Both the position numbers and the translations under genes were made by a program. 64,000 nt of DNA from Alentia gelatinosa (taxonomy: Eukaryota; Annelida; Polychaeta; Phyllodocida; Polynoidae). Position 1 is the stretch's first letter. Every line of letters begins with the position of its first letter. Location: positions 851,234-915,233 of the forward strand of contig OX465592.1 of the NCBI GenBank assembly GCA_950022655.1, read 5' to 3'. Positions 5,125 to 63,432 of the stretch are shown one piece after another. The notes beneath the pieces are model-generated. The model did no database searches. It had not been told where the DNA came from and worked only from the letters and a program-made list of their open reading frames with translations.

Positions 5125-5460
5125 CACAATATTGACTGGTTTCAGATACAAGCGGCCGTATGCTCCAAAGAGTTGACGAGTAGTAATATCCGAGCGTGAG
5201 CGAGGATATTCTGCAGAGTCAACTCCTAGGAGCATAAAACCGCTTTTATCTGAAACCAGTCAATATTGTATTTATTATCCACCTTTTCTGGGCAAGTGGC
5301 ATGTCAATATCAGTTCATTTTAGTTATGCACTATTTTCCCGTGCGCACTATTTTTCCCTATGCGCCACCCGGAGCATACAACAAATCCGTATGCGCCGGG
5401 TATGTCCATACAAACTCCCTATGTGTTTTCTATGGACACTTTGTATTATGTGGATAATAA
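5125..5460 (+). mobile_element. FB-C foldback element, copy 1
   Basis: The palindromic tail 5125-5270 has arms starting ACACAATATTGACTGG and ending CCAGTCAATATTGT. Its apex is AATATCCGAGCGTGAGCGAG at 5184-5203, completed by GATATT. It is followed by a TIR module from TTTATTATCCACC (5271) to GTGGATAATAA (5460). Ten copies or fragments occur in the window. It encodes nothing. Confidence 0.92.
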
Positions 5461-5783
5461 AACGTGGTATGCAATTCTACCCGCTAATAGGGGTGCAGTA
5501 GGCCTATATATAATGTTCGGGCTCACTAAGATGTACTGAATGAGCTATGAATTGGTGAATAAAATGATTAAATAAAATGCCGTTTATCATCTTTTTGTTC
5601 AGGTATACATATGCATGTAATTATAATAAAACGTAGTGAGTGAACCCGTAGTGATTCCGTTCTCGATCTTTTGTTCTGTATTTACGGCCCTCCGCCTCTG
5701 CCATCAGGCCATACTTATAGGACAAAAGACATTGAGCACCAATCGCTACGGCCTCACTGACTACATTTTCTCTTATTATACCT
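5461..5783. mobile_element. FB-H foldback element, diverged copy
   Basis: Arms ACGTAGTGAGTGAACCCGTA (from about 5630) and the inverse ending CTCACTGACTACATTTTCTC form a palindrome with apex CCCTCCGCCTCTGCCATCAG near 5690-5709. The GTTCGGGCTCACT and CCGCTAATAGGGGT words match the better copy at 26957-27293. Confidence 0.65.
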
Positions 5784-6374
5784 GTGGACGAATGTCTCAC
5801 ACTTACTGACCAGCTGTATGGATTTCAGTTTTCACAGTGCGACAAACTAAAATTCATACTACACGATGGAAAATAAGTTTTTAATTATTTGCAGGAATAT
5901 AATGATATGGAGACAAAGTGAGAGTTCTATCTGCTCCTTGTTGGTTTGGTCGAAAATACGTACTTCGTTCTTCGACCTCGGTGGGTATTTTCAGCACAAA
6001 AGAAAACACGGTACAGATTCCTTTCGGCCACCCTAACCATGTCTCCCTATACTACTACTCAACATCGCCAACTGACCCTTCACTCTGACATAACTGATAT
6101 TACTGTTTGGCATTGTGTTCTAACACAACCTATGAACCTAGAAAGGGAATTAAATGCCACCCTTTCCAGTCGTGGCTCTTCTGAATCTATTCGTGACGTG
6201 AATGTTTTGGACCAGAATCAGAATAATTTATACATGTATTTATCCCAGCTTGGAAAGTCCCATCTTGTTAAGAGTTGCCTCTCCAGGATGCTATGATTGT
6301 AACCGCGTTGTTGAGTTATTCCGCTGCCTGTTTCTCTGCTAAGCAACTGGGAATCGTTTTGATATGAAGAAAAA
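5784..6374. other. single-copy DNA, no gene recognised
   Basis: A 116-codon frame at 5946-6296 has no recognisable motif or splice context. No repeats are shared with other parts of the window. Confidence 0.35.
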
Positions 6375-6554
6375 GGCCATTTTCCACTGGCCGACGAAAA
6401 CGGCACCAGTTTATTGTGTTCTCCTAATAGTCGGTCGGTGGTGGCCAACGACTGTACGTCGGTTTCTGATAACCAGTGAGGGTGAAGTGTGTGCCTTGTT
6501 TCTGCCGCATGTGACACGTCTACACTGACTGAAGTCAGACGGTGGTGGCCTTAT
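6375..6554. mobile_element. MITE-M copy, rearranged
   Basis: It starts GGCCATTTTCCACTGGCCGA and has interior words shared with 14515-14866 (TTCTCCTAATAGTCGG, ACGTCGGTTTCTGATA, ATTAATCGGTGAACACTTC just outside). The right border is unclear. Confidence 0.65.
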
Positions 6555-7074
6555 TGTATAATCTGTGCACAATTAATCGGTGAACACTTCTCTGCATGTT
6601 TCAATTCACTGATCTGGTGTCGGTGAATGACTTTATGGCAGGTTCCTGTACAGGTGATAAGAGTGAACAGATCCAAAAGACGCCACTGGACGAGCAGCCA
6701 CCTAGTGACGAGATTGTGAATCAATAAAACGTACTCGCTGTCTAAATATATCTACAATCATTAGAGTCCACGTTATATACACCACTAGAAGGGCTTTTGG
6801 TCAATACCGAAGTAAACTGTCTTGAATAACAACAACATTTTCATTTGTTTTCATTTATGTAAATTTTCTGTTTGGTTTCTTATGTAGAATATAGTCTAGT
6901 TTAAGTACCCAAGCAGTCTCTTGCATCTCAGAATATATTTGATACTGTTCTCTACCACGAAATAACCTTTTACAGAAAACTTTCATTCTGTGGTATAGCT
7001 AAGGTTTTAGTTTTGTTCATTCACCATTTGATATGAGCAGCACAATTCTACATTTTTGAATATGCGATGAAAAA
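6555..7074. other. single-copy AT-rich DNA
   Basis: Apart from a MITE-M inner word at 6570-6600, nothing repeated or coding is visible. Confidence 0.35.
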
Positions 7075-7400
7075 TTAAAAACAGCGAAAACTACCCCAGC
7101 CTCGCTCGGGAGAGACGCTAGACAGACGCCGGACGGACGCCGCGGGGACGCTGAGCTGCTCTAGTTCGGCGAACTGCCTGCAGGTGGCAGCACTCACTAA
7201 CCATCTCCAGCGTCTCTCTGCCTTATACACCATTTCATACAGAGATCCTACATATCCATAGACTATACCATTTTTTATGCCTGATAACCACGCAAATTTA
7301 ACACCAATAACATTCCCCTTTGTGCATTCGATAGCGACATGATTCAATCTAAATGTCTCACGTGTATATGACGCAGTATTTCTGATTCTTCCCGGTCTAG
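7075..7400. promoter_or_regulatory. GC-rich non-repetitive stretch upstream of the candidate exon
   Basis: 7080-7200 is CpG-rich. A pyrimidine-rich run ending TTCTTCCCGGTCTAG at 7386-7400 would serve as a splice acceptor. Further on, AACCAAGATGGCGAC at 7439-7453 also fits a YY1-type element at a start codon, so the region could instead be a promoter with a first exon at ATG 7447. Both readings are inference. Confidence 0.3.
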
Positions 7401-7567: not shown

Positions 7568-7571
7568 GTGA

Positions 7572-8550: not shown

Positions 8551-8555
8551 GTGTA

Positions 8556-8870
8556 AATACACAATATCGACCGGTATCAGAGACAACCTGTCGTAATCTC
8601 CGAGGACCAGACGCCTTGTAATATCCGAGCGAATGCGGGAATATTACGTATGGAATCTGGTCTGAGCAGCACACACACGCTTTTATCTGAAACCAGTTTA
8701 TATTGTTTTTATTAACCTCCATTTGTCGCTGATACTTGCCATACTTTGACATTTCCAACGTCCTACTTTCGGGAGTAGGAGATTACGGGCCTCCGTAATC
8801 TGCTACTTGTAAATTACACACTCAATGCGGTATCTATGGAGACTCCGTAATCGGCGGTGAACACATCACG
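8556..8870. mobile_element. FB-C diverged copy with a variant flank
   Basis: The palindrome 8560-8707 has apex AATATCCGAGCGAATGCGGG and a right arm ending TATCTGAAACCAG. The expected TIR module is replaced by a block with GGAGATTACGGGCCTCCGTA and TGGAGACTCCGTAATC, which recurs at 53605-53715 and in part at 13021-13075. Confidence 0.75.
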
Positions 8871-8966
8871 TTTCCTGTCCCTGTCCACCTCTTTACACCT
8901 GTCTCCTGTCCTCTGTCTTTCACTACTGTCCATTGTCTGTGAACCTATGAAGTATAGATCTACAAT
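8871..8966. other. short spacer
   Basis: A pyrimidine-rich spacer with CCTGTC-like words. Nothing else is seen. Confidence 0.3.
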
Positions 8967-9236
8967 TATCTTAGCCTGGTTTATACGTCCATAGGCTTAA
9001 CATTAGGAACCCGTACTCAATAGGCTTGTGAGTATAGTAACTCATATTCAATGGAAGATAAACGGGTAAATACATCCAGGCTAAGATAAAATCAGGAACA
9101 TATTCGTGCTTGGTCTGAGTCCCCGTTCGCCATCTCGTTTGGAGGACTTCAGAATATTCACTCGGTTATCGCCTCGTTCATATTACTACATACTCCAAAC
9201 TCGATGGCCAACGGGGACACAGATCAAATGGTCATA
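8967..9236 (+). mobile_element. FB-F foldback element
   Basis: The TIR module runs from TTATCTTAGCCTGG (8967) to CCAGGCTAAGATAA (about 9082-9095) and contains CCATAGGCTTAACATTAGGA. The palindromic tail follows, with arms GAGTCCCCGTTCGCCATC and GATGGCCAACGGGGACAC and apex AATATTCACTCGG then CGCCTCGTTCATATT. It is single copy in this window, but its architecture matches FB-D and FB-E. Confidence 0.8.
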
Positions 9237-9440
9237 CATTTCTTTCTTATTAAGATTCTTGCCGTAGAACTTAACTTTGTAAATAAAAAAAATAAAAAAA
9301 TAAAAAAAGGTTCTCCCAACCACCAAAGATATGCAGCAAGCAATTTTATCGACTTCAATGGAAATACCAGGACGAAACGTACGATCTATTCCTATATACC
9401 TATGGCTGTACACTCTATGCTTACACCACGCTCTGGGGGG
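9237..9440. other. single-copy DNA with an A-rich run
   Basis: An (A)n-TAAAAAA run lies at 9285-9308. No gene is seen. Confidence 0.3.
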
Positions 9441-9450
9441 TGGAGTAACT

Positions 9451-9515
9451 ATCTGATACTACCCAAGGTTGGTATACTACCCAAGGTTGCCGTATACTAC
9501 CCAAGGTTGACATTT
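9451..9515. repeat. short triplicated motif
   Basis: TACTACCCAAGGTTG occurs three times within about 60 bp (near 9457, 9474 and 9493), with spacers of a few bases. Confidence 0.7.
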
Positions 9516-9555
9516 AGACCAATCAGATTGTCTCTTATTAAACCACATTTGAAGG

Positions 9556-9725
9556 TATATAGGAATAGGGAAACCAAGTACCAGTGAAAGGAAGTCAAAA
9601 TTACTCGGTAAGGCTTGGAAAAATTACTGCCCGCGGCCAGGGCCTTGGGCAGTAATTTTTCCAAGCCTTACCTCGTAGCTTTGACTTCCTTTCACCGGAA
9701 CATAGTTTCCCTCTACTCCTATATA
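9556..9725. repeat. 170-bp foldback palindrome with near-perfect arms
   Basis: The left arm 9556-9632 and right arm 9647-9725 are inverted copies around a 14-bp loop (GCGGCCAGGGCCTT). The inner part is close to perfect, for example GGCTTGGAAAAATTACTGCC against its complement. A half copy (one arm only) lies at 33975-34043, so this is a dispersed family. Confidence 0.92.
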
Positions 9726-10395
9726 TCTGCACATTACTATCAAAACAACCCTGGAATCTCGCATATTGAGAAAGAACTGCATCGACATCCATAGCCCCTG
9801 AACATACGCCATGGCTGCGGAGTAATCTCACGAGGCAAAGCTTTGGGAGATTATGTCGCAATCCAAAATGAATGGCATATATATCCTGTGGCTATGGATC
9901 GAGCGCAGTTCAGATTATATCCCCCTATCATTGACTAATTGGCTAACATTTGTGACATCATGGAGTATGTCTTTTACAATACTCTATGGGTGTTGAGTAC
10001 GAGTTCGCAAAGTTAAGTCTATGAGGAAAAACACCAGGGTGAGAAAACTACGCTACTCATATACGTGTATAATACTGTAAATATTCATGGGGATTGATGT
10101 GTGTAGCTCTGTATGAATCAGGAGATGATCTAACCCCTCGTGGTGTATGGTGTGGGTGTGGTTGTTGAAAGGTGGAAGTGTAACTGTGTCATTTAAAATC
10201 AAAACGTTAAGTATTTATCAGAAACAAGTCACAGTGGTCCTATTACAGTCTTATATTAGGAATACTATATGGAAACAGGGTTACTTTGGCTATACGTGAT
10301 ACATACTCTGTAAAATTCACGATACCAGAGGCAGAGGTTCACCTAATCTATGCATGTTTATTAATTTACCTTCGCTTTTGCACGATTTCTTTAGT
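9726..10395. other. single-copy DNA, with one FB-L-like fragment
   Basis: 10318-10372 carries GAGGCAGAGGTTCACC, similar to the FB-L apex at 63235-63252. No coding signal is seen. Confidence 0.4.
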
Positions 10396-10397
10396 TT

Positions 10398-12808: not shown

Positions 12809-12809
12809 T

Positions 12810-13637: not shown

Positions 13638-13968
13638 CCCGGCGTTTACACCAGACGATTCTGAGCAGTTAAATGATAGAAATCGTCTTGTGTAAACGCC
13701 AAGTGTGTGGCGACTGCAGATCGTCTGGTTACTTCAGATTATACAATTAGGCACCACCCGACGACTATTGGACACGCTATGATGCCGGCGATTATTTCAC
13801 ATAGGTGACGATTCTGTGAAAACTTATAGTCGTCAGTGTAAACGTTCGGTACATTCTGAGCTCTATGACTTTTGCGGTGGACATTGCCTCCAACTGACGA
13901 CTATTAGCTGACGATCTACAGTCGTCACGTTTTAAGTAGTTGTACATCGGAGCTAAGTGGACGCTGGG
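13638..13968. mobile_element. MITE-B, full-length unexpanded copy (331 bp)
   Basis: It starts CCCGGCGTTTACACCAGACG. Its diverged right end reads GTGGACGCTGGG. The core has GGCACCACCCGACGACTATT and an internal second end pair (AAACTTATAGTCGTCAGTGT). This is one of the two copies without tandem growth. Confidence 0.8.
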
Positions 13969-20684: not shown

Positions 20685-21262
20685 AATACAGGTGTTTCCG
20701 TTGAGCGCCGCCTAACGGCCCACCATCTAGTTACGCGGCCGCTCGGACAAACGGTGTGAACGGTGGCATTCATATAGAGACATATGGCAATCACACCTAG
20801 AGTGTGAACGGTGGGTGTGATTGCAGGAGTGTTGTGTTTGACAGATTAAATTGTTGGAACAAATTAAGGTATTGTATCAACAAGTCATGGCTAACTGAAC
20901 TCTATAGTTGATAATTATCTTGGTTATGAATAGGAAAAAAGATATGCATATATAACAGCGAGGTATGCCAATGCAATAGTGTGTATGCAGTTTCGGTGTC
21001 CCTGTGTTATCTAAGGTATATCTAAAGTATCATTGAGGTGATATGCATGTATGACATACCAAATTGGAGCTGAAATATCATAGAATACGATGTAATCACT
21101 GATATTTCTCTGAAAACAATGTGCACGGGTATCATGAGCATATTACACTAATACACTCTGTGAATTAATGCTAAACTATACGTTGCCAGGTGAATGTTTG
21201 GCTTCAGCCTTGGCGTAACTAAGCAGATAAGGTGCGACACTGGCCTACGGAAAAAGGCCTAT
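20685..21262 (-). repeat. R560 interspersed repeat, copy 2
   Basis: Inverted relative to copy 1. It begins TACAGGTGTTTCCGTTGAGC. The hairpin CAATCACACC / GGTGTGATTG is perfect at 20789-20825. Words such as GGTGATATGCATGTATGA and ACGTTGCCAGGTGAATGTTT are shared by all copies. Confidence 0.88.
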
Positions 21263-21960: not shown

Positions 21961-21966
21961 ATAAAT

Positions 21967-22309
21967 ACACAATATTGACTGGTTTCAGATACAAGCGGTG
22001 GTATGCTCCGAGGAGTTGACGCGTAGTAATATCCGAGCGTATGCGAGGATATTGCGCAGAGTCAACTCCGAGGAGTATACAACTGCTTTTATCTGAAACC
22101 AGTCTATATTGTATTTATTATCCACATTTTCTGGACAAGTGGCATGTTGATATCAGTTCGTTCTAGTTATGCAAGTGCACTGTTTTTCCCTACGCACTAT
22201 TTTTTCGTATGCGCCACCCGGAGCATACAACATATCCGTATGTGCCGGGTATGTCCATGCATACTACCTATGTGTTTTCTACAGACACTTTGTATTATCT
22301 GGATAATAA
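21967..22309 (+). mobile_element. FB-C foldback element, copy 3
   Basis: The palindrome 21967-22115 has apex AATATCCGAGCGTATGCGAG. The TIR module starts TTTATTATCCACATTTTCTG and ends GGATAATAA at 22309. A tandem array starts 8 bp later. Confidence 0.93.
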
Positions 22310-22590: not shown

Positions 22591-23545
22591 ACTCCCCTAA
22601 AGGCAGTCCCTGTAATAGGAAATGGAGGTAAATACAAGTTGAAAACCTTCTGTGCGCATAAATTATCATAGGCAAGAGAATTTAATAAAGTTTGATTTAA
22701 AACATGGTGATTTTTTTCTCTTAATTCTTGATTATTTATTGATTGCCATTCCTTGCCACTTTACTGGCAGCCCGCCCGACTTCTGCCCACCACACTTCCC
22801 TCTCCCCGCCGACAACTCGCAACTTCTGCTTTAATTTCCGCCATTTTATCTTCTCATTTTCTCCTTCCTCCGCCGGAAAAACAGTTAGAAAATCACCTCC
22901 AAAACAAGGCGCTCTGTTTTAATCGAATTATTTTTGAGAATTTCTTGCACGTCACGGAAATAGGTTATTGATCTAAAACGACGCGGGTACTAATGGTATG
23001 CCTGCTTTTATGAATTATTTATAGAGATTAATTATTTATTTTTCAATACGTCAACGATTTTACGATGCTTCTGGGGAAGGGAGGGAGGGCCGATAAGAAG
23101 CGCCGGAATCTTTAACGTCGTCCTGAAGCACTGCAGGAGGTTGGAGTCTTATCACTTAAAGACATTGTTTATTGAATATCCAGGACGCAATGTAAATAAA
23201 GCAATTCGTTGCCGTCCTCTGTTTCAATTAAATCACGACGATATAAAGTTAAATCCACGGCCTTGGATTGACAATACTCGCCCGAGAACGTAGAGTGTAA
23301 AACAATGGCGCCAACCATCAGAATTCTGCATTCGCAGCGGCTACACGGCAAAAAGAGGCTTTCTTATGATTCTTAACTCGAAAGGGATCTAGGAGTGAAG
23401 GGAAGTTTGTACTTTAACACTAATGAATATTATATCAGAACAAAAGAAAGCCATGGAAGTAGAGTTATTAGAAAGGTGCATGTCTGTTTGAACATAGAAA
23501 ATACTGCTATTTATCCACGCTTACCTTTCCCCTATATGCATGCAT
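22591..23545. other. single-copy DNA of conserved-noncoding character
   Basis: No repeat is shared with the rest of the window, and there is no satisfactory coding frame. 22650-23350 mixes AT-rich stretches (TTATTTATTGATTGCC) and GC-containing words (AACAATGGCGCCAACC), the texture often seen in regulatory DNA. This is an inference from composition only. Confidence 0.35.
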
Positions 23546-23790
23546 TATCTCACCCCTGGTATTTTTTGTCCCATAGGCTTATCACTGACTCGTTATCCAT
23601 TCCCCTATGAGTATTGCAGTCCGTTCTCCATGGTCTATATCCTGTGTGACGTACATTCTTTTAGTGTATATATACAGGGGTGAGATAAATACAGAATTCA
23701 ACTCGTTTTGGTTAAAGTTGTCATTCTCCAACTCGTTTGAATGCTACGTGATCAAAGTCATGGAGAATGATGACTTTGACCAAAACGTCT
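23546..23790 (+). mobile_element. FB-D modular element, copy 1
   Basis: The TIR module runs from TATCTCACCCCTGG (23546) to CAGGGGTGAGATA (23676-23688). The palindromic tail has arms AACTCGTTTTGGTTAAAGTT and ACTTTGACCAAAACG. The apex is lost here by an internal deletion but is present at 40675-40705. Confidence 0.9.
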
Positions 23791-24204
23791 AATTTTCTTC
23801 TTTAGTTCGTAAACAGCTGGTTACACTGGCTGCATATGTACAGGTTATCTCCTTGCACTGTCCGCAACAAGGGTAAGGAGCTACGCCAACTATGGCCATT
23901 GCGTATGTCATCGAACTTTGGCATATGACAGAAATCAATCTACAACAAAAAGGGCAGTTTCACAGAGAGAGTAAATCTAGTATCGTATGCTGCCTTTCTC
24001 CAGGTCGAAGAGTCCTGATACAGCAGTTCGTCTTTTGTCAAACTCTCTACATGTACTTGTTTAGGAACTCTCCCCAAATGAATATGTTAGCTATGGACAA
24101 CAAAAACGGCACCAATGGATTGAGCTCTCTAAGTAGTCGATATCTATGCACGTCGGTGTCTAAAACTCTGTGAAGATGTAGTGTGTGGCTTGTGTCTACC
24201 GCAA
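23791..24204. other. single-copy DNA with a MITE-M trace
   Basis: GGACAACAAAAACGGCACCA at 24096 resembles MITE-M. A 93-codon frame at 23892-24173 has no recognisable domain. Confidence 0.35.
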
Positions 24205-24775
24205 TACAGATGTTGCCGTTCAGCGCCGCCTAACGGCCCACTGTCTAGTTACGCGGCCGCTCGGACAAACACCGCGAGTCTGACGGTATTCATATAGAGA
24301 CGCACAACAATCACACCTAAAGTGTGAACGGTGGGTGTGATTGCAGGAGTGTTGTTTTTTGACAGATTAAATTGCTGAAACAAACTAGGGTATTGTAGTA
24401 ACAAGTCATGGTTGTCTAAACTGTATAGTTGATATTTATCTTGGTTTTAGATAGGAAAAAGATAAGCATATAACAGCTGGGTCTGCCAATGTTTTAATGT
24501 GTATGCAGTTTCGGTGTCCCTATGTTATCTAAGGTATATCTAAAGTATCATTGAGATGATATGCCTGTATGATACACTAAATCGGAGCTGGAGTAACATA
24601 GAATGCGATGCAATCACTGTTATTTCTGTGGAAATAATGTGCAGAGGTATTATGAACGTATTACGGTCACGCACTTTGTTTATCAATGCTAAAGTATACG
24701 TTGTCAGGTGAATGTTTGGCCTCAGACATGGCGTAGCTAAGCAGATAACGTGCGACACCAGCCTGTGGAAAAATA
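24205..24775 (-). repeat. R560 interspersed repeat, copy 3
   Basis: It shares its whole length with copy 2, starting TACAGATGTTGCCGTTCAGC. The copy ends near GTGCGACACCAGCCTGTGG. A MITE-M end follows. Confidence 0.9.
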
Positions 24776-25629: not shown

Positions 25630-25956
25630 GCGATACAACAAAGTGTCCGACACATAGGGAGTGTGTGTCGACATACCAGGGGCATCTGTTCGGCACCGGG
25701 TTGTGACAAAGCACGTAAAAATTCAGAAAAACAGTGCGTACGGAAAAATAGTGCATCACTAAAGCCAACTAATATCTGCACGCCACATGTCTGGAAAAGG
25801 TGGATAATAAGCACAATAAAGATTGGTTGCAGATAAAAGCAGTTCTATACTCTGAGTTAACTACACGCAATATCCTCGCATTTGCTCTGATATTACTACG
25901 CGTCAACTCCTGGGAGCATACGGCCGCTTGTATACGTGAAACCAGTCAATATTGTG
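25630..25956 (-). mobile_element. FB-C foldback element, inverted copy
   Basis: The TIR module comes first (AAAGTGTCCGACACATAGGG), then the palindrome whose right end is ACCAGTCAATATTGTGC. The left arm is shortened. The apex reads AATATCCTCGCATTTGCTCT. Confidence 0.85.
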
Positions 25957-26138
25957 CATGTATACTCAGCCCCCTTTTTTGAGCGTGGGAAACGCGCTCA
26001 GATACGCTGCTAAGGTTAGGGAGTTGTTCTATAGACTTCCAGCGTGCTGCAAAAATGATCTCTGCACTCTCTGCATTCCAACTCTCTGTGACATTGGTGA
26101 GCCAGGCCCTAGTGTCTCAGAGGAGCGCCCAGTCGTGA
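25957..26138. other. short single-copy spacer
   Basis: Nothing recognisable. Confidence 0.3.
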
Positions 26139-26356
26139 AGCCAGAGACACACCACGTGAGTCAAGGCAGCGATCTCCGGAATAACCAACACAAAATATCA
26201 TGTCTATGAGATATCATTTCATAGTAATATCTCCCACTGATGATTTAGCGTATAAGAAACAATAATCAAATATGGAATAATAGCTCACATACACGTCATT
26301 TTGTGTTGGCGATTCCGTAAATTGCTGTGTTACTCGCTTGGTGTGTGTCCGGCTTT
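26139..26356. mobile_element. MITE-A copy (218 bp)
   Basis: The left end is GCCAGAGACACACCACGTGA and the right end CTCGCTTGGTGTGTGTCCGG. The interior has the shared ATATCTCCCACTGATGATTT. It is head-to-tail with the next copy. Confidence 0.9.
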
Positions 26357-26357
26357 A

Positions 26358-26580
26358 AGCCTGGGACACACACCAAGCGAGAAACGCAGCGATTCTCGGA
26401 ATCGCCAACACAAAATGGCGTGTATATAAGATATAATTTCATAGTAATATCTCCCACTGATGATTTAGCGTATAAGAAGCAATAATCAGGTAATATCTGA
26501 AATTATACCTCACATACAGACCATTTTGAGTTGGCGATTCCGGAAATGGCTGTATTTCTCGCTTGGTGTGTGTCCGGCTT
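26358..26580. mobile_element. MITE-A copy (223 bp), tandem with the previous one
   Basis: TIRs GACACACACCAAGCGAGAAA and TTTCTCGCTTGGTGTGTGTC are nearly perfect, followed inward by paired GCGATTC-CGGAATCGCC words. The two copies meet at GGCTTTAAGCCTGGG. Confidence 0.93.
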
Positions 26581-26735
26581 AACAGACTGAAATGCCTCAT
26601 GCCGGGAACACAACAGCAGGGCGATGCCTACTTGTGTACGAACATCGTGTTCCAATGATGGTTATTAGCACCTTTATTATCCGCCTAATACAAATGAATA
26701 CAATGTAGTCTGTTTTCAGATGAACTGTTCATCCT
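26581..26735. other. short single-copy spacer
   Basis: Nothing recognisable. Confidence 0.3.
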
Positions 26736-26950
26736 GTGCCGTATCCTCACATACGCTCGGATATTACTACGCGTCAACTCCTCAGGGCATACGGACCGCC
26801 TGTATCTGAAACCAGTCTATATTGTATTTATTATTCACCTTTTCCTGACAAGTGGCGTACTGATATTAGTTCATTCAGGTACGGACTATCTTTTCATACG
26901 CACTATTTTTCCGTATGCGCCGCAGTTTGCAGCCCGGGTCATGCAATGTG
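26736..26950 (+). mobile_element. FB-C partial copy
   Basis: It retains the apex (ATCCTCACATACGCTCGGAT), the right palindrome arm and the beginning of the TIR module (TTTATTATTCACCTTTTCCT). The left arm and the module right end are missing. Confidence 0.8.
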
Positions 26951-26956
26951 TTTGTA

Positions 26957-37877: not shown

Positions 37878-37929
37878 ACTTCATCGTCAGTGACGTCCGG
37901 GATCAGAGTCACCCGGTGAAGGGTGACAA

Positions 37930-42420: not shown

Positions 42421-42944
42421 CCCGCGTTTACACCAGACGATTCTGTCAATTTGCACTTCCTGACGATTTTCAGCAGTAAAATGATAGAAATCGTCTAATG
42501 TAAATGCCAACCGCATGGCGACTGCAGATCGTCTGATTACGTAAGATTTTACAATTCGGCACCACCTGACGACTATTGGACACGCTCTGACACCTGCGAC
42601 CATTTCAAGTAAGCTTGAATTAGTCGTCTTGATGGGCGGTGATTCTGTGAGAACTTAGTCGTCAGTGTAAACGCTAGAGAGTCCTTTCTGGGGTTGAAGA
42701 CCTTTGCGGTGGACATTGCCGCCACCTGACGACTACTGGTATCATGATCTACAGTCGCCACATATTTGGTCGTCTAGTGTAAACACCAGGTTAGAGCACC
42801 ACCTGACGACTATTGGCCTGACGATCTACAGTCTTCACGTTTTTAGTCGTCTAGTGTAAACATCAGGTTAGAGCACCACCTGATGACTATTGGCTAGACG
42901 ATTTTCAGTCGTCACGTTTTTGGTCGTCTAGTGTAAACGCCGGG
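42421..42944. mobile_element. MITE-B copy with two extra terminal 77-bp units
   Basis: It starts CCCGCGTTTACACCAGACGA and ends GTCTAGTGTAAACGCCGGG. After the first right end (near 42790), two further units GAGCACCACCTGACGACTAT to GTGTAAAC follow. This is the early stage of the expansion seen at 55.2 kb. Confidence 0.88.
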
Positions 42945-43650
42945 ATACGTCATTTCCGCCGTGTGTAGTACCCAGTCTCACCACCAGGAGGCCAGCCCTG
43001 AAGGCAAGATGGCGGGGGTATATCCCAGGGTGCACCGCATGATGACACATCAGTGTGGGCCGTTTTTGAAATCTCTTTGAAAATTAATGCACATTGCGTA
43101 GAGAAGGTGTCGAGGGGTCTGTGTTGTTTAGAAATATGCGCAGGTTTGTTTTGTTTTGGATGTATTTGTTTACAGATCTGCAATTATCAATGTATGCGGA
43201 TATTTAGGTGCATGTCATTAAATGTACATACAGAAAATACCCTAAATACCAGCCTCTGCTACAGAAGTGGTACCACCATACTGTGCTGGTATGAGGACGT
43301 ACCACCATACTCTGAACTTTAGATATAAAAGAAATGAATATTATACAGACTAAAAATTCATAATGAACATTTCAAAATTATATCATTATTATGAATAACG
43401 CAAAGAAAATAACTTTAAAAGCTGTGTAAATTCTTCTTCTTCGTCCCGCATATAAATATTTTATACGTAGCATACAGTCACATCATGTTAAGTCTAAGGG
43501 GATTTATATGAGGGGTCGAATAAGGACTAGAAATGACTGACATTACCTCCTTTTACCTTTGCATTATATGGAATAAAAATAAATAACAGGTAGAGACATT
43601 CTGAGATCCTGTGTCATATCAGCTCTGAACACGATTTGTGGAGCCTTGCG
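42945..43650. other. single-copy DNA with one solo unit of the 57/62-bp array
   Basis: AAGATGGCGGGGG at 43006-43018 is a YY1-like word. 43460-43515 carries a lone unit (CATACAGTCACATCATGTTA, GGATTTATATGAGGGGT). An open frame at 43053-43322 has no recognised domain. Confidence 0.4.
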
Positions 43651-44003: not shown

Positions 44004-44171
44004 CTCCACATCAGATTCACCGGAAAGTTTTCGTGTGTGCATGCACTCACACACAAAGGACTCTGGGGCCTGTTTAATAATCTAGGATCGTACATGAAGA
44101 CCCTTTTCTGTTCCTTGTACGAGGGTTATCGTTTAATAATATTTAAGTTCATTCACTAAGACAATATAACC

Positions 44172-44665
44172 TGGCGTTTACATTGGACAACTAAATATGT
44201 GGCGACTGTAAATAGTCGTCAAGTGGAAGCAATATCCACTGCAAAAGTCTACCTCAGAATGTACCGAACGTTTACACTGACGACTATAAGTTTTCACAGT
44301 ATTGCTGCCCGTGTAGACGACGAATTCAAACCCAATTGAAATAGTCGCAGGTATCAGAGTGTGTCAAATAGTTGTCAAATGGTGGCAATGTCTGCTACAA
44401 AAGTCGACCTCAAAATGTACCCTAGCGTTTACACTGACGACTATAAGTTCTCACAGAATCGCCACCTATCTAGACAACTAATTCAAGCCTGCTTAAAATA
44501 GTGGGCAGAAGAGCGTGTCCAACAGTCGTCAGGTGGTGCCGAAATGTATAATCTGATGTAACCAGACGATCTGCACTCGCCATGCGCCTGGGCTTTACAC
44601 TAGACGGCTTCTAGCCTTATACGGCTGAAAGTCGCCAGGCAGTTTACAATGCCAAAATCGCCGCC
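44172..44665. mobile_element. MITE-B body feeding the satellite array
   Basis: It starts GGCGTTTACATTGGACAACT and holds the family core in reverse (CAACAGTCGTCAGGTGGTGC). A duplicated inner block (TAGCGTTTACACTGACGACT at 44270 and 44410) precedes the array. Confidence 0.85.
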
Positions 44666-45652
44666 TATAAAGGTCTAGTGTAAAGGCGGTTTAAAATGCC
44701 AGAATCGCCGCCTTAAATCGTCTAGTGTAAATGCGGTTTAAAATGCCAGAATCGCCGCCTATAATCGTCTAGTGTAAAGGCGGTTTAAAATGCCAGAATC
44801 GCCGCCTATAATGGTCTAGTGTAAAGGCGGTTTAAAATGCCAGAATCGCCGCCTATAATGGTCTAGTGTAAAGGCGGTTTAAAATGCCAGAATCGCCGCC
44901 TACAATCGTCTAGTGTAAAGGCGGTTTAAAATGCCAGAATCGCCGCCTATAATTGTCTAGTGTAAAGGCAGTTTAACATACCAGAATCGCCGCCTATAAT
45001 GGTCTAGTGTAAAGGCGGTTTAAAATACCAGAATTGCCGCCTATAATTGTCTAGTGTAAAGGCAGTTTAAAATGCCAGAATCGCCGCCTACAATCGTCTA
45101 GTGTAAAGGCGGTTTAAAATGCCAGAATCGCCGCCTATAATTGTCTAGTGTAAAGGCAGTTTAACATACCAGAATCGCCGCCTATAATGGTCTAGTGTAA
45201 AGGTGGTTTAAAATACCAGAATTGCCGCCTATAATGGTCTAGTGTAAAGGCGGTTTAAAATACCAGAATTGCCGCCTATAATTGTCTAGTGTAAAGGCAG
45301 TTTAAAATGCCAGAATCGCCGCCTACAATCGTCTAGTGTAAAGGCGGTTTAAAATGCCAGAATCGCCGCCTATAATTGTCTAGTGTAAAGGCAGTTTAAC
45401 ATACCAGAATCGCCGCCTATAATGGTCTAGTGTAAAGGCGGTTTAAAATACCAGAATTGCCGCCTATAATTGTCTAGTGTAAAGGCAGTTTAAAATGCCA
45501 GAATCGCCGCCTATAATCGTCTTGTGTAAATGCGGTTTAAAATGCCAGAATCGCCGCCTATAATCGTCTTGTGTAAAGGTGGTTTAAAATGCCAGAATCG
45601 CCGCCAATAATTGTCTAGTGTAAAGGCGGTTTAAAATACCAGAATCGCGCCT
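44666..45652. repeat. 47-bp satellite, about 21 units, with 4- and 5-unit higher-order repeats
   Basis: The unit GTCTAGTGTAAAGGCGGTTT then AAAATGCCAGAATCGCCGCC then TATAATC is the reverse complement of the MITE-B end that also forms the 3.3-kb array. The variant TACAATCGTC recurs at 44901, 45089 and 45324, giving spacings of 188 (4 x 47) and 235 (5 x 47) bp. Confidence 0.96.
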
Positions 45653-46460
45653 ATAATCGTCTCGTGTAAAGGCCGGAATAGCCGCCTATAATCGTCTCTT
45701 GTAAAGGCCGGAATCGCCGCCTATAATCGTCTCGTGTAAAGGCCGGAATAGCCGCCTATAATCGTCTCGTGTAAAGGCCGGAATCGCCGCCTATAATCGT
45801 CTCGTGTAAAGGCCGGAATAGCCGCCTATAATCGTCTCTTGTAAAGGCCGGAATCGCCGCCTATAATCGTCTCGTGTAAAGGCCGGAATAGCCGCCTATA
45901 ATCGTCTCGTGTAAAGGCCGGAATAGCCGCCTATAATCGTCTCGTGTAGAGGCCGGAATAGCCGCCTATAAACGTCTCGTGTAAAGGCCGGAATAGCCGC
46001 CTATAATCGTCTCGTGTAAAGGCCGGAATAGCCGCCTATAAACGTCTCGTGTAAAGGCCGGAATAGCCGCCTATAATCGTCTCGTGTAAAGGCCGGAATA
46101 GCCGCCTATAAACGTCTCGTGTAAAGGCCGGAATAGCCGCCTATAATCGTCTCGTGTAAAGGCCGGAATAGCCGCCTATAATCGTCTCGTGTAAAGGCCG
46201 GGATAGCCGCCTATAATCGTCTCGTGTAAAGGCCGGGATAGCCGCCTATAATCGTCTCGTGTAAAGGCCGGAATAGCCGCCTATAAACGTCTCGTGTAAA
46301 GGCCGGAATAGCCGCCTATAATCGTCTCGTGTAAAGGCCGGAATAGCCGCCTATAATCGTCTCGTGTAAAGGCCGGGATAGCCGCCTATAATCGTCTCGT
46401 GTAAAGGCCGGGATAGCCGCCTATAATCGTCTCGTGTAAAGGCCGGAATAGCCGCCTACA
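45653..46460. repeat. 35-bp satellite, about 23 units
   Basis: The unit CGTCTCGTGTAAAGGCCGGA then ATAGCCGCCTATAAT is the 47-bp unit with a 12-bp internal deletion. The switch is abrupt near 45650. Dimorphic sites: AATCG or AATAG, and AATCGTC or AAACGTC. Confidence 0.96.
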
Positions 46461-46562: not shown

Positions 46563-47991
46563 TGAACCGCACGGCCCCCACGTATTGTTTCCCGCGCTCA
46601 CAGTAATACGAAGACGCCTGGCCGCGCTTTCCCGTTTTTCTCATCATATCCTCGCGCATTTTAGCTTCCTAATGAAACTCCCGCGACGAAATGCAAGCTA
46701 GCCATGTTTTCTTGTCCCGATACAAGCCTAAAACAACAATAATAATGAACATTTCCATCGGTGTGGTTTTTAAACGCGGTTTTCATCCTTTTACTGCGGA
46801 TAGATCTCGAGTTGAGTTCTGTATTCCGACTCCAGTTTCCCAAACATTATTTTCTGCTTCACAAGGTATCGCTGTACATTAGGAGCAGGTCGTTTTCAAA
46901 CCATACATGGAAACCTTGCTACCTGTGAGAGTACCTTACCTGTCAATTTATTCATGTTATTGTCACTAATTATTTCGGACCAGTTTTTAGGCAGTCCCTG
47001 ACAATGTTAGATGCACTAGAAAACATTTCCCCCGTCGACAAATGAAAACCTGACGCGGTTGTATGTGGATTCTCACTGCGAGTCTAAATACAAGGTGAAG
47101 TTTTATTTCGGGCCTGAGTCATTATACACCTTCCCGCTTTTTTGAATTTCATTAAAATCGTCTGCTTTAGACACCCGGACATGTTGACAGAGCATCACTT
47201 CAACAATCCCAGGTTTAATAGTTTACAGGAAAACCTTCCCCGGAGACAACCATTGCCGATGTTTCACGTAATTTCAGAGATTCGAAATATTTGAATGAAA
47301 ACTGAAAAATACCTTTCGAATCGGTCCTGATTTTGTATGGACCCTGTCATTTTTGACAGAAATTGTTCATTAATATCATATTTAAAGTAGATGTATTTTC
47401 TGTGAGTTAGTAAATAAATGACATATCAACTGATACAAGCGATTTAAATGACGTCGAACCTGACCTCATTTAACGCCCTCTGATTGGTTAAAACTTCAGA
47501 AGCCACGCACACTGACGTCACAACTAAATCAAAGACATCAACAGAATTAACAAATCTGACATGTCGGAAAAAAGAACCAGTATACCTGATTAACTAGGAG
47601 CAAATAGAGTGTTCATCATTGACGAATGAGCGTGCAATTATAAATGAATAATCATCAAAAGGTTTGGGTTACATTCAGTCAATGGATAGTTTTCTGTTAC
47701 CCACTTGCACCCAGTCAACTTGCTATTTCTGCAACTGTCTGAGTCTAGGATCAAAACATATCAAGCACCAGTGGGGCAATGAGGTATTTTGGCCTTGAGT
47801 GATTGGTCATGGTCAGTTGGGCATGCCTCGAAGACCCTTAGACACTGGCACCCTGCTCCTTTCTCAATATCACAGTGAGCAGCACACAGAAAGTGAAGGG
47901 ATAGTCTTTATGCAGTACGCTGGAAGTCTATATGTGACCATTCTAACCTCTAGGTGATGTATAAAGCCCGTAAAAGCACATTCTAATAAAT
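46563..47991. other. single-copy DNA
   Basis: No repeat and no convincing frame. It contains a CRE/CCAAT cluster (listed separately). Confidence 0.4.
47446..47525. promoter_or_regulatory. CRE and CCAAT-box cluster
   Basis: AATGACGTCGAAC at 47448, TGATTGGTTAA (inverted CCAAT) at 47481 and a perfect TGACGTCA at 47513-47520 lie within 80 bp of single-copy DNA. This combination is typical of proximal promoters in animals, but no exon is recognised nearby. Confidence 0.35.
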
Positions 47992-48170
47992 ACAAAATAT
48001 TGACTGGTTTCAGATACAAGTGGCAGTATGCTCCGAGGACCGGACGCGTAGTAATATCCGAGCGCATGGGAGGATATTACGCAGAGTCAACTCCGAGGAG
48101 CACACAACCGCTTTATCTGAAACCAGTCCATATTTTGCATTTATTATCCACCTTTTCCTGACAAGTGGCA
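47992..48170 (+). mobile_element. FB-C palindrome, truncated after the tail
   Basis: The palindrome 47992-48140 has apex AATATCCGAGCGCATGGGAG. Only the first 25 bp of the TIR module (TTTATTATCCACCTTTTCCT) remain. Confidence 0.9.
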
Positions 48171-49415: not shown

Positions 49416-49574
49416 CGCTTTATAATGTCAAAATACAGTACATTTGTACAGCAAAATACGGAACACTGTTCCATACGCGTCGATTAAACCATTATTTGTC
49501 ATTAGGCCGAATTAAGTTGGTTGTTTTTAATGAATTCTGGGTATATAGTTTCCCTTTCCCTCCCTCTATGATAC
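49416..49574. other. short single-copy spacer
   Basis: Nothing recognisable. Confidence 0.3.
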
Positions 49575-49735
49575 TTATAGAACAACTCACCATGCTTGTA
49601 CAAGACACAAAACTCGATAATAATTTATGGCTCGTACGGAACTCGGTGTAAACGCCTCGTGCCGTATGAACCCTGAATCATTATGTCGTTTTGTAGCTTG
49701 TACAGCATGGTCAGGTCGTTCTATGTAAGTACCTT
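49575..49735. mobile_element. FB-K hairpin element, copy 1
   Basis: The arms CACCATGCTTGTACAAGACA and TTGTAGCTTGTACAGCATGG pair over about 65 nt. The apex carries GTACGGAACTCGGTGTAAAC then GCCTCGTGCCGTA. Better copies lie at 51393-51553 and 63015-63165. Confidence 0.85.
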
Positions 49736-50410: not shown

Positions 50411-50975
50411 GCCTGGTTACGCAATGCCTGCAGCCAAACAATCACCTGGCAACGTGTTCTTTAACTGACTAAACCCCTTACACAGGCCCGTGTCGCACCT
50501 TATCTGCCTGGTTACGCGATGCCTGCAGCCAAACACCTAGTAACATATTCTTTAGGATTAGATCACTTAATGTATGGACGATATATATTCATGATCTGCG
50601 TGGAAATGATTTCTAGAGAAATAACATCGTATTCTATGGTATTCCAGCTCCTATTTGATGTATCATACATGCATATCACCTCATCTATACTTTAGATATA
50701 TCTTAAATGGCACAGGGACACCAAAACTGGATACACAAAAATGTATTGGTAGGCCCAGCTATGATATGCTTATCTTTTTCAATGTTAAAACCAACATAAT
50801 CATTAAATAATCGTCAAAAAACAACACTCCTGCAGTCACACCCACCGTTCACACTCTAGGTGTGATTGCTGTGTGTCTCTATAGGCATGAGGCCAGACTC
50901 GGTCGAGTTTGTCCGAGTGGCGGTCTAATTAGAAAATGCACCGTTAGGTGGCGTTAGACGGCAACACCTGTAAAA
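50411..50975 (+). repeat. R560 interspersed repeat, copy 4
   Basis: Same orientation as copy 1. The first 60 bp are duplicated (GCCTGGTTACGCAATGCCTG at 50410 and CTGCCTGGTTACGCGATGCC at 50504). It ends GACGGCAACACCTGTA. Confidence 0.88.
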
Positions 50976-51392: not shown

Positions 51393-51553
51393 TTCTTATA
51401 TAGAACGACCTGACCATGCTATACAAGCTACAAAAAGAGATGATAATTTACGGTTTGTACAGAACGAAGCGTTTACGCCGAGTTCCCTACAAACCGTAAA
51501 TCATCACCGACTTTTGTAGCTTGTACAAGCATGGTGGGCCGTTCTATATTTAG
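51393..51553. mobile_element. FB-K hairpin element, copy 2
   Basis: The arms TATAGAACGACCTGACCATG and its inverse (CATGGTGGGCCGTTCTATA) and GATGATTTACGG-type inner pairs give about 68 nt of stem. The apex is AACGAAGCGTTTACGCCGAG. Confidence 0.92.
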
Positions 51554-51614: not shown

Positions 51615-51775
51615 TAGAACTGCATCGAGAATCGTATGAATACACAATACTCCACAAGCTTGGATGGGCTGCAATCGTCAGCGAGGTGAAGCCGAGTGAC
51701 GATTACGACCCATTAAAACGAGTGGAGTATTGTGTATTTTACGATTCGAGTGCGGTTTCACTGACATTAGATAGC
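51615..51775. mobile_element. FB-J palindrome, copy 2
   Basis: The arms AATACACAATACTCCACAAG and the inverse GTGGAGTATTGTGTATTTTA, with apex TCGTCAGCGAGGTGAAGCCG then AGTGACGATT. Outer GAGAATCGTATG / TACGATTCGAG also pair. Confidence 0.88.
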
Positions 51776-55094: not shown

Positions 55095-55825
55095 GTAAAC
55101 CCCTCTCATTTCCCCACCTGTCACCACCTGGCGACTATGCAGACAATTTGACGCTGATGATTATTTCAAAGCAATACATTTCTCCGCTTGAGTAAACGCT
55201 TGAAGAAAGGGCACCACCTGACGACTTTTGGATCTACAGTCGTCACGTTTTAGTTGTCTAGTGTAAATGCCGGGTTAGAGCACCACCTGACGACTACTGG
55301 CTAGACGATCTACAGTCGTCACATTTTAGTCGTCTAGTGTAAACGCCGGGTTAGGGCACCACCTGACGACTATTGGCTAGACGATCTACAGTCGCCACGT
55401 TTTTAGTCGTCTAGTGTAAACGCCGGGTTAGAGCACCACCTGACGACTATTGGCTAGACGATCTACAGTCGCCACGTTTTTCGTCGTCTAGTGTAAACAC
55501 CGGGGTAGAGCACCACCTGACGATTATTGGTTAGGCGATTTACAGTCGTCATGTTTTTAGTCGTCTAGTGTAAACGCCGGGTTAGGGCACCACCTGACGA
55601 CTATTGGCCAGACGATCTACAGTCGCCACGTTTTTCGTCGTCTAGTGTAAACACCGGGGTAGAGCACCACCTGACGATTATTGGTTAGGCGATTTACAGT
55701 CGTCATGTTTTTAGTCGTCTAGTGTAAACGCCGGGTTAGGGCACCACCTGACGACTATTGGCCAGACGATCTACAGTCATCACGTTTTTCGTCGTTCAGG
55801 GTAAACGCCGGGTTAGGGCACCACC
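55095..55825. repeat. MITE-B with a 77-bp terminal array, about 8 units
   Basis: The unit GAGCACCACCTGACGACTAT then TGGCTAGACGATCTACAGTC then the end GTCGTCTAGTGTAAACGCCG and GGTTA. It is the opposite terminus of MITE-B from the one amplified at 3.3 and 44.7 kb. A two-unit segment (CACCGGGGTAGAGCACC variant) is itself duplicated at 55496 and 55650. Confidence 0.95.
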
Positions 55826-56429
55826 TGATCACAGAGTGATTGCTAGTTCCACCAGCATCGAACATGAAATCGTAAGAAAGCGCCATTGTAGTCGGGGGAC
55901 AACCACTATTTTCTGCTGTCTTTATCTATAGATAATCGTAAGGCAAGGCTAAACCCCTTTAATGGTAAACCAAAAACAATATCCTCAATAAAAATCCATT
56001 GATAACTGGTCCCGCCACCTGGTGTTTTGTTTAGCGTCAGGGAACAAGATGGACGCCTCCATAACACAATAGCTATGTGCCCTATATCAAAGAGAATGCT
56101 ACAACAATACACAGACAGGTCGAGACATTTGACATGTTTCATTTTAGTCGGAAAAAGTGAAGTTCTTGAGAATCATCCACGTAGCCATTAGTGTTCGGAG
56201 CGACAAGATAAACAATCTATAGTCAAGATGAACAGCCTCAGTCAATACTGTCACCTTCTTGAGGAGAATACTTTGAAGGATAAAACATTTATCTAAGTGG
56301 ATAGACAATCATATAACACGGAATGATCGTTTGTTTGGAGCATGCCACGGTAAAGTATCCGTATTTAAACTCGCTGTTAAATATCTCAAAAACCCGTTCT
56401 AGTCTGAAGCGAGCTGAGCTTGACAAAGA
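55826..56429. other. single-copy DNA
   Basis: No repeats or convincing frames. Confidence 0.3.
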
Positions 56430-61038: not shown

Positions 61039-62639
61039 CCAGTATTCCAGCTGCATTCTAAAAATAACTGGTGGGAGATCATCAAGAAATACATCCATGC
61101 TTATTCTCCAGAGTTTTGAAGGAGAATCGGGTGATATTTTGAGCACATGAGGCGGCGGCGATCACAGATTACGATTAGTTGTTGTTATTTTGTGGCATGT
61201 ACACTGGACACCTGCCCCTGAAGCCGAGACTTCCCCGCTCCGTGTATTTCCCGAACTCCGGCGGCGTCCACTCAGATCACCAGAGCAGATTAAAGTGGTC
61301 TCTTCTCACCAGGGCTCATTATCTTTATTAAGAAGTTCGGGCAATCTGAGGTGGTCAAAGTAGACTCCCGTCTCTGATCTTTGTAGAAATGAATCTGGGC
61401 TCAGGTGGACGCGGACTGCGTGGTCGAGGGAATGAAATAACGCATTGAGATCTTCTACGAGAATCCCCCAAGATCATTTATATTTCCCAAGTAAATTTCT
61501 CTTTTGCCTCAATCTTTTCACTAATGATTTTGCATTATTGTTTTTCAACATATACTCAAATTCCTAACAAATGATAATAAAATGGAGCAAGCTCATACAG
61601 TAAAAGCAAGTCAAATACAAGTCAAAGTATTAATCACCAATGCAATGAAAATATGCATCATGTTATCATGATATTGAAAACTGAGCTAGACTTTCTATTA
61701 GAAATAGAGAAATCTTTGATTAATGATCTCAAATTTGAACTATGTGAAATAAGAATTGTTATGAGGCGCTTCAGAAGGTACAGAATCCGGCTCTGAGAGT
61801 GACGTTGGGAGCTGCTCTGTTAACTCCACGTGTTGAGCTGCACAGAGAGCCCAGGTACCACACTTAGTAGACGGACGTGAGAGACATAAAGTTAATCATA
61901 TGTACAAAGAAAACAGTGACTGTACAAAACGGCAAAGGATAGACCGGCCTACTAGTCGTAGACGTCAAGGTGATTTATTCAATTTAACGATTCCAAACTG
62001 TGCGCACTATCAAAACTCACTGGACCATTTACATTGTATATGAAACAGTCTCCCGCTAGAATTTAGAACGATTCCAACAAATAGAAACTTTAAATTGTAA
62101 ACTAAGAAAGATTGCAAAACTCTAACCCATAACTGAAAACAAATGCTGAGACCATTGTCTTATGCTTGATCTTCATAAATTGTCAAATATATCATCATAG
62201 GACCTTCGTGGTCTCATATTGCCCCGGCTTATTGTAGTAAGATGCAAGTTTTTCCTTTTCTTTTTCATTCGATCTGTAATGTATGTATGTATATGTGTTA
62301 AATCTGGTTGTTTGTTAATTGCTATTCTACTACTACAGAATTAACTCAGAATTAACTTAATTAAGTGTACCACTCTCTATGTATTAAACCAGCATTATAA
62401 GATACTGAACATCGACAATATAAATAAACGATTTAAAAAAGTTGTTGATTCTGCATCTCTGGTAAAGTGAAGCTGAGGCAGATTTGATCCACGTTTGTCT
62501 ACTTCAGTAGAACAAAAACAATTGTAGCTCTAACTTCCTCACTGAGGATATTGAATTTTTTTTCTTCCCGAGTATTTTGGAAAAGCTTGTCTGTAGTTAA
62601 TCAATAATAACTACTTTCCAGGACTATAACAAAAACATT
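61039..62639. other. single-copy DNA of conserved-noncoding character
   Basis: 61115-61480 is repeat-free and rich in regulatory-type words (CAGATTAAAGTGG, TTATCTTTATTAAG, CAGGTGGACG, CTTTGTAGAAATGAATC). 61480-62640 is AT-rich. Assignment is inference. Confidence 0.35.
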
Positions 62640-62956
62640 TATCATCCACCTGATAGGAAAGCGCCACAGAAAACATACAAGGAGTTCGTATTTCTACTGG
62701 CGGGGGATATAACTCCGCTGTATCCTCCTAGGAGGATACATGAAAAAGTAGTGCGAAGTAGCGGGTCAGCAGATCGGCGGCCATTTTGTATTTCCTCCAA
62801 TAACTTGAGATTTGATATGATAAATACAATATCAACCTGCGTCAGGTACTGCGCGTATCCTCCTCTTAGTTGACTCCTCGCAATATCCTCGCTTACGCTC
62901 CGATATTACAACGTGTCATCTACGGGGAGGATAGACCCACTGGTATCAGAAACATA
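62640..62956 (-). mobile_element. FB-C-related element, diverged inverted copy
   Basis: The TIR module begins TTATCATCCACCTGATAGGA. The tail has AATATCCTCGCTTACGCTCC then GATATTACAACG at the apex, and the arm CACTGGTATCAGAAAC. Confidence 0.75.
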
Positions 62957-63014
62957 TGGTGCACCTCTCAGCATCCTGGAAGTCTCCATCAACATGTTAT
63001 CTGAACTAGTCCTT

Positions 63015-63165
63015 ATATAGAACGACCTGACCATGCTGTACAAGCTACAAAATGAGATGATAATTTACCGTTTGTACGGAACGAAGCGTTTACGCAGAGT
63101 TCCGTACAAGGCGTAAATTATCATCGAGTTTTGTAGCTTGTACAGCATGGTCAGGTCGTTCTATA
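63015..63165. mobile_element. FB-K hairpin element, copy 3, best preserved
   Basis: Left arm 63015-63085 and right arm 63096-63165 pair over about 68 nt with few mismatches (ATAGAACGACCTGACCATGC against its exact complement). The apex is GGAACGAAGCGTTTACGCAG. Confidence 0.95.
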
Positions 63166-63189
63166 GAGAAACCGGCTGACTGTCTCCGT

Positions 63190-63432
63190 ACGGATGAAAT
63201 ACGCAGTAACATCGGCGATCAGATGAACTGATGCCGAAGGCAGAGGTTCATCTGATTGCCGATTTTACCATGTATCTATTATTATATACCTTGAAATATC
63301 CAATTTTTAACCTAGCTTCTGGGGGAGTTTTTGGATTTCGCCGAGGTGTCGCACGGATATAAATATGAATATAGACTTGAGTAGGAGCGGGCCGTATGTG
63401 TAGGATATACTACCACAGGTATATAATAATAT
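63190..63432. mobile_element. FB-L modular foldback element
   Basis: The palindromic tail 63190-63268 (AACATCGGCGATCAGATGAA against TTCATCTGATTGCCGAT) has apex GATGCCGAAGGCAGAGG. The TIR module runs from TATTATTATATACC (63277) to GGTATATAATAATA (63419-63432). Confidence 0.8.

Follow-up and report, generated by a model that had tools for sequence, protein, structure and literature searches.

Palindrome-tailed elements in the window

The stretch analysed here, called the window throughout, comprises 64,000 nucleotides of the polynoid annelid Alentia gelatinosa (contig OX465592.1, positions 851,234 to 915,233 of the forward strand) and holds many small elements that end in a long imperfect palindrome and are candidate non-autonomous relatives of Helitron2/Helentron transposons. 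In families C, D, F, G, H and L these elements follow a common plan: a terminal inverted repeat (TIR) of 12-15 bp, of the TTAT..CC type, stands at the module end of the element and is followed by the module, by an inner TIR copy that abuts, overlaps or sits near the palindrome, and by the imperfect palindrome itself, which measures 85-190 bp and reaches the opposite element end. The inverted repeats are TTATTATCCACC in C, TTATCTCACCCC in D, TTATCTTAGCCT in F, TATTCCTATATACCT in G, TTATTACATACCT in H and TTATTATATACCT in L. An earlier reading of the letters made without database searches (the sequence-only reading) had proposed a single superfamily of two-part foldback elements, and the common plan supports that unity; G and K are two families additional to its list. 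The palindromes, including ten C copies, were located by self-comparison and folding of the window and lie where that reading had placed them. The two-part layout holds for the six families named above, and for J, K and one H copy no TIR module was found within 900 bp of the palindrome.

Family C is the most fully represented. Whole units lie at 5122-5460 on the minus strand (palindrome 5115-5277 first on the plus strand, module up to 5460), at 21965-22309 (minus, palindrome 21961-22119), at 29310-29677 (plus, palindrome 29524-29676, with a duplication inside the module) and at 33319-33657 (minus, palindrome 33313-33474), the last being the reference for the genome search, and the element at 39427-39765 (minus, palindrome 39427-39570) is truncated at its palindrome end. 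The module is incomplete at 47984-48170 (minus, palindrome 47984-48146) and at 25726-25969 (plus, palindrome 25800-25966), only the palindrome and the inner inverted repeat are present at 8551-8717 (minus, palindrome 8551-8716), and fragments lie at 26734-26952 (minus, palindrome fragment 26742-26850) and at 62817-62953 (plus, palindrome fragment). Compared with dinucleotide shuffles, two folded C copies give z values of -13.2 and -9.2. As to the joint occurrence of tail and module, a count that starts from the palindromes gives a full module for five of the ten C palindromes of the window and part of one for three, and K consists of the tail only.

The D element at 40458-40753 (plus) carries its TIR at 40458-40471 and 40586-40599 and its palindrome at 40598-40753, a second one lies in the opposite orientation at 41090-41378 (minus, palindrome 41090-41245), and a D-like element at 23545-23800 (plus) has lost its hairpin tip; the latter is perhaps the family E of the sequence-only reading, which matched no other place. 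Family F is represented at 8966-9230 (plus, TIR at 8966 and 9078-9089, palindrome 9107-9230), and G at 9387-9728 (plus), where the TIR lies at 9387-9401 and 9553-9567, with the inner copy within an arm of the palindrome at 9550-9728. The G module contains 20-bp tandem repeats (9456-9509), which are present in many copies in one G locus elsewhere in the genome (L018), and G is the only family in which tandem repeats of the HINE type were shown between the terminal modules. The whole H unit at 26955-27292 (minus) has a palindrome that runs from 26950 to 27116 by folding and to 27111 in the unit, with the TIR TTATTACATACCTA at 27112-27125 and 27279-27292, and L occupies 63195-63434 (minus, palindrome 63195-63281, TIR at about 63277-63291 and 63417-63432). 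Palindromes with no module found are those of H at 5620-5776, of J at 40090-40203 and 51636-51741, and of the palindrome-only family K at 49573-49735, 51398-51549 and 63013-63168.

The elements begin with TTAT and end with GTAT or CTTA, and the canonical Helitron1 features (5'-TC and CTRR-3' ends, insertion between A and T) were not encountered. No coding partner was recognized, since ten reading frames of the window gave no Pfam match at a cut-off of 0.01; the window contains no Rfam family at threshold, and the exact C apex has no match in viral contigs.

GA steps and covarying arms of the hairpin

When 20 palindromes of the window are folded, 35 internal loops of two by two nucleotides result, and in 17 of them GA faces GA (GA/GA); counted with one copy per family, GA/GA makes up 11/18 of such loops in the window, and a control of seven partly overlapping stretches of other inverted repeats, folded on both strands, gives 0/12. 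Among the control sequences is a multi-arm inverted array (26128-26589 and 47-247), a separate palindromic repeat which folds without GA/GA steps. This hypothesis came from the window and was put to the test on the next 200 kb (L029-L048), the joined map having 264,000 letters, 5,000 of them masked. In this new stretch, 27 palindromes of 60-230 bp contain 29 two-by-two loops, of which 13 are GA/GA, spread over 11 palindromes, and 6 more are one letter off, compared with 2/217 in simulated palindromes of matched lengths and identities. Measured from the axis, 10 of these 13 out-of-sample steps lie at 7-8, 33-37 or 62-63 nt and the remaining ones at 23, 27 and 50 nt, and a single palindrome at map position 238043 (L046) has all three layers, at 7, 34 and 63 nt; the third layer, at about 62 nt, was first noticed in the test stretch itself.

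The steps are also strand-specific. In all six window families with modules, the strand bearing GA reads from the palindrome to the module, and in the 200-kb stretch, where 14 of the 27 palindromes can be oriented by GA, a TIR head lies to the right in 10/14 and to the left in 0/14, with 127 of 5000 random stretches matching. This strict TIR pattern was chosen after viewing the flanks found with a looser one, which placed heads to the right in 11 and to the left in 2 of the 14 but also fitted 832 of 5000 random stretches. The window copy of H has AA/GA at its tip, and the consensus of 21 copies (20 from the genome and one from the window) has GA/GA in the tip as well as the second layer. A strict scan of tips in the window found GA/GA in 5 of 52, four of them C copies, under a rule that missed D, F, K and L. 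Loops of GAA or GCA are frequent at the tips in H, L and the D-like group. Short hairpins may be highly stable, and one known example with a stem of two base pairs is presumably GCGAAGC. The melting temperature given for the two-base-pair hairpin is 76.5 °C (PMC10527192).

The sequence-only reading described the apex as similar among families with unrelated arms, took this to suggest selection on a hairpin tip, and named apexes that diverge as fast as the arms as a refutation. Across 28 family pairs, the mean pairwise tip score is 0.54 versus -6.24 for arm windows, but the arm windows that reach the tip score exceed 5% in 15 of these pairs. Lower divergence of the apex was not found within C, the only family for which tip and arm divergence between copies was usable, the H values being dropped since its tip string could not be located and its axis was arbitrary: pairwise identity is 0.87 for a 26-nt apex or 0.79 for its 16-nt core versus 0.75-0.89 for the arms, and the divergence among 20 genome copies is 0.017 versus 0.006-0.021, that is, the C tip changes no more slowly than the arms. 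Selection is therefore argued from the comparison between families and from covariation, and not from the divergence of copies.

Covariation was examined in an alignment of 15 D-like palindromes from the 264-kb map, from which a candidate at map position 190801 was omitted, its tip not being centred. The arms of this group align and covary and are thus recognizably related: 31 of the 35 predicted pairs change on both sides, and none of 500 shuffles reaches any of the five observed pairing values. The share of paired cells is 89.7% versus 33-41% when the partner is slid, a percentage that leans towards the structure, since this alignment also served to derive it. Counted by eye, GA/GA is exact in 7 of the 14 D-like members that have a tip, and because gene conversion of the arms would restore GA/TC, we infer that selection acts to keep GA facing GA. 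The tip looks constrained as a hairpin signal, and the conserved part is not the apex alone but includes the GA/GA steps along the hairpin.

Alternatively, the tip may be unselected, all families having come from one hairpin, with arms kept complementary by palindromic gene conversion and a GA/GA tip that is merely inherited. The divergence of the C tip at the pace of its arms and the recognizable relatedness of the D-like arms agree with such a history, but conversion that repairs the arms should repair GA/GA as well, yet across families that differ in their arms these sites are still unpaired, in two or three layers, and we regard this explanation as unlikely.

Genome copies, chains and insertion sites

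In the 1.23-Gb assembly, the C query gave 4710 first-look candidates and the H query 3876, and in each case 40 places were scored, 39 of them other than the query itself. The other C copies are 94-96% identical and extend from query positions 1-9 to 343-348 of 348 nt, and those of H are 90-94% identical and extend from 1-13 to 341-343 of 343 nt; C and H recur genome-wide as whole units, in lists that favour whole copies because each query was a whole unit. The G palindrome gave 1273 first-look candidates, of which 40 were scored, the others being 97-99% identical. G copies often stand in chains of palindromes and modules, in which a shared palindrome is flanked by modules of different subfamilies and of either orientation (L002-L028) and neighbouring modules are about 70-100% identical; the G search, made with the palindrome and the repeat ends, favours such chains.

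These chains bear on the possibility that the units are rolling-hairpin elements, whose palindrome would serve as a hairpin telomere and be copied, in a parvovirus-like way, by fold-back synthesis, and whose chains of alternating palindromes and modules, with shared palindromes, would be concatemer junctions. The two module orientations around a shared palindrome fit this possibility, and mismatched steps in a hairpin recall the parvoviral bubble. It would not account, however, for single units with the palindrome at one end or for chain neighbours that belong to different subfamilies, and a genome search with Parvo_NS1 gave no match, although its controls were silent as well; such an origin also seems improbable.

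Insertion sites were compared in 20 copies each of C and H. Next to C, T stands at -1 in 18/20, and the other side begins with any nucleotide followed by T (19/20), A (18/20) and T or C (20/20). H is preceded by TA (T in 17/20, A in 18/20), and its tail end CTCTTA is followed by any nucleotide, then T (18/20), A (13/20) or C (6/20), and T or C (18/20). Both families, which differ in sequence, insert ahead of the motif |NTAY, and the shared target suggests a single machinery for the two. Target-site duplications (TSDs) of 3, 4, 5 or 8 bp, sought at nine settings of the tail end, show no clear excess over shuffled flank pairs, the highest counts, both for 3 bp, being 4/20 in H (3.4 expected) and 3/20 in C (2.9 expected).

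Empty sites point in the same direction. A comparison of the 40 joined flank pairs with the other loci and the 264-kb map gave relatives across the junction for 8 of them, with 53 spanning matches in all. Three C insertions (L054, L057 and L071) have gapless empty-site relatives, L057 having two more that are off by 1 nt at the junction, and a fourth (L064) is gapless with one relative, its flank being itself C-like and its other relatives gapped. For two H insertions (L077 and L078), most relatives fit a tail ending 3 nt further in and one each fits the first setting, which places the junction within 3 nt. Spanning matches at two further C insertions (L058 and L068) were set aside as mostly gapped matches of element on element, the relatives of L058 missing letters at and near the junction. 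A scan of gapped matches yielded 24 events with one clean nested insertion, an L-type element within a C-like palindrome (map 136926-137212, L036), which fits T|T and equally a 5-bp TATTA repeat; the other events are read as rearrangements within G chains. It is concluded that C and H insert without TSDs.

Such insertion speaks against DDE transposases, and with them against the view that these are cut-and-paste miniature inverted-repeat transposable elements (MITEs) or foldback elements of the Galileo or FB kind, whose palindrome would be one enlarged terminal repeat. Foldback elements have long inverted repeats in common with the present ones, and the short TIRs, the many copies and the long palindromes without coding capacity would suit this view, as would the nested insertion, which by itself would permit a duplication of TATTA. 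Against it stand the three C loci whose empty sites are gapless, the palindrome at a single end, the internal position of one TIR copy and, in 20 copies each of C and H, the lack of any excess of direct repeats whichever tail setting is used, so that this origin is held to be rather remote.

An autonomous relative with Rep/helicase and the same ends was also sought. The profile PF14214 (Helitron_like_N) found one locus in the genome, C7:36825292-36825621, in a search in which 3 candidates were scored and divergent Reps may escape. The element on C7 (36.8207-36.8280 Mb, L050-L051) contains Rep and helicase in several interrupted frames, an OTU-like stretch recognized by eye only, and inverted ends of 45 bp at 36820724 and 36827979. 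The PIF1 profile has nine matches in the genome, and Y1_Tnp (IS200/IS605) has none, with a control that was positive in 5 of 14 genomes. Two open frames of 678 and 1169 amino acids on one strand (L047:1055-3088 and 3092-6598) resemble a long terminal repeat (LTR) retrotransposon, with a protease-like DTGAE motif seen by eye, and another locus has an open frame of 932 amino acids (L045:3525-6320, minus strand).

Other repeats are found in the same window. A dispersed family with tandem arrays of 35, 47, 64 and 77 bp and common flanks (GTAAACGCC and GACGACTAT motifs) occupies 3319-4025, 13649-13940, 27894-28240, 42425-42947, 44167-46458 and 55208-55862 and may be a second family of satellite-carrying elements. 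A G+C-rich minisatellite block of about 4.4 kb (34763-39223) is made of units of 54-57 bp and 50 bp in a background of 40-45% G+C, and a dispersed repeat some 570 bp long, with 70-85% identity, lies at 1590-2163, 20685-21258, 24202-24758 and 50414-50972 and has no self-comparison match to the palindromic families.

Interpretation and comparison with known systems

The elements are most plausibly non-autonomous members of the Helitron2/Helentron type, similar to HINEs, a membership that is unproven and to which we assign a probability of about 0.6. A rolling-circle transposase (HUH Rep/helicase), supplied in trans, would recognize the strand-specific hairpin as an end signal. The GA steps, probably forming sheared pairs, and the small tip may be the marks for recognition or cutting, and as such they would persist while the arms drift together; chains of units could arise from missed termination or from repeated insertion next to a resident end.

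A bolder interpretation, which we put forward tentatively and think doubtful as a whole, would make the tail a hairpin code in DNA, specific to one strand and consisting of two or three tandem GA/GA steps with a spacing of about 28 nt under a small tip of high stability; selection would maintain this code, and the arms would be free to change in pairs. Its reader would be a hairpin-binding recombinase, which need not be a known Rep/helicase and which inserts the elements before NTAY without duplication, and the code would define a superfamily that is present very many times in a single genome. That the hairpin acts as RNA and not as DNA, for instance as a transcribed hairpin, a small-RNA source or an export signal, is very improbable, for although its strand specificity and the stability of tandem GA pairs in RNA as well would agree with this, the window holds no Rfam family at threshold.

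Several observations weigh against the reading as Helitron2/Helentron-type elements with a recognized hairpin. Within C the tip is no more conserved than the arms, and in 15 of 28 family pairs the arm windows reach the tip score in more than 5% of cases. By the Helitron convention, the sense strand carries the hairpin at its 3' end; the GA steps then fall on the complementary strand, with TC facing TC on the sense strand. A 5' hairpin appears weak or absent: the first 45 nt of 12 elements are predicted to fold at 0 to -3.2 kcal/mol, and TIR bases pair with downstream bases in C5 and C21 (-2.8 and -2.4 kcal/mol) but not in most other elements. The target is |NTAY rather than strict TT, family K has no module, and in some G chains the palindrome is oriented opposite to its neighbour module. 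The broken C7 element has ends unlike those of these families, with no GA palindrome seen there, and the PF14214 search of the genome gave no autonomous partner, which is unexpected when some families, such as G, are so young. Finally, the 3' hairpins described for this class, as far as the available parts of the papers go, measure 5-20 bp with the 3' asymmetric terminal inverted repeat (ATIR) 20-60 bp from the end, a distance that is about 85-190 bp here.

How eukaryotic rolling-circle transposons recognize the 3' hairpin and terminate is, to our knowledge, still an open question. A natural mutational scan is provided by several families whose arms differ but whose GA steps are alike and stay on one strand, and through it the recognition rule becomes testable with oligonucleotides. 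The GA-step signature, together with the TTAT..CC inverted repeat, also gives a means to find and classify elements that, without it, would be taken for unrelated foldback MITEs.

The sequence-only reading knew of no named class with this layout, but an asymmetric TIR combined with a 3' hairpin is that of Helitron2, Helentron and HINE elements (PMC3627910, PMC4067079, PMC7492417). These papers and PMC5148889 define the class by inverted repeats that are asymmetric or subterminal, by a palindrome at the 3' end, by T-rich targets and, in most cases, by the absence of a TSD. Here, a TIR at the 5' end with a second, internal copy before the 3' hairpin is found in C, D, F, G, H and L, the 3' terminal palindrome is present with a tail several times longer, and simple insertion without TSD is seen for C and H. 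The long hairpin with GA steps is probably a design without match in the literature searched, where the parts consulted contain no description of a long GA-stepped Helitron tail, within a class that is otherwise known. Foldback elements such as Galileo and FB differ in that the present elements have the palindrome at one end only and no TSD.

The individual systems, again as described in the available text of each source, share different parts of this design. Helitron2 (PMC3627910) has the same asymmetric TIR, its 5' copy terminal and its 3' copy internal, right before the 3' hairpin, and inserts after T-rich sequence, with no TSD in Helitron-1N1_CRe and TSDs in CRe-1 to 3; it differs in a 3' ATIR about 20-30 bp from the 3' end, and it has the target TTTT|T/C, where the present elements have |NTAY, and a 5' hairpin that includes the 5' ATIR, a hairpin that appears weak or absent here. 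The Helentron-associated HINE or DINE-1 elements (PMC4067079) share subterminal inverted repeats (subTIRs) of 12-15 bp, a 3' palindrome, no target modification and, in some members, internal tandem repeats such as those of G, whereas their palindrome measures 5-10 bp with no GA steps mentioned in that text, and no linked element with Rep, helicase and endonuclease was found here. Cg_HINE of the Pacific oyster (PMC7492417) has a right flank of about 60 bp with a short palindrome, but likewise combines a subTIR of 11-12 bp, central tandem repeats, a 3' palindrome, a T-rich target and no TSD. FoHeli of Fusarium (PMC5148889) is autonomous, 5-11 kb long, and its GAA hairpin belongs to the ATIR, and it has in common with the present elements the ATIRs, the terminal GAA-loop hairpins of FoHeli1 and 2 and insertion between TNAT and T.

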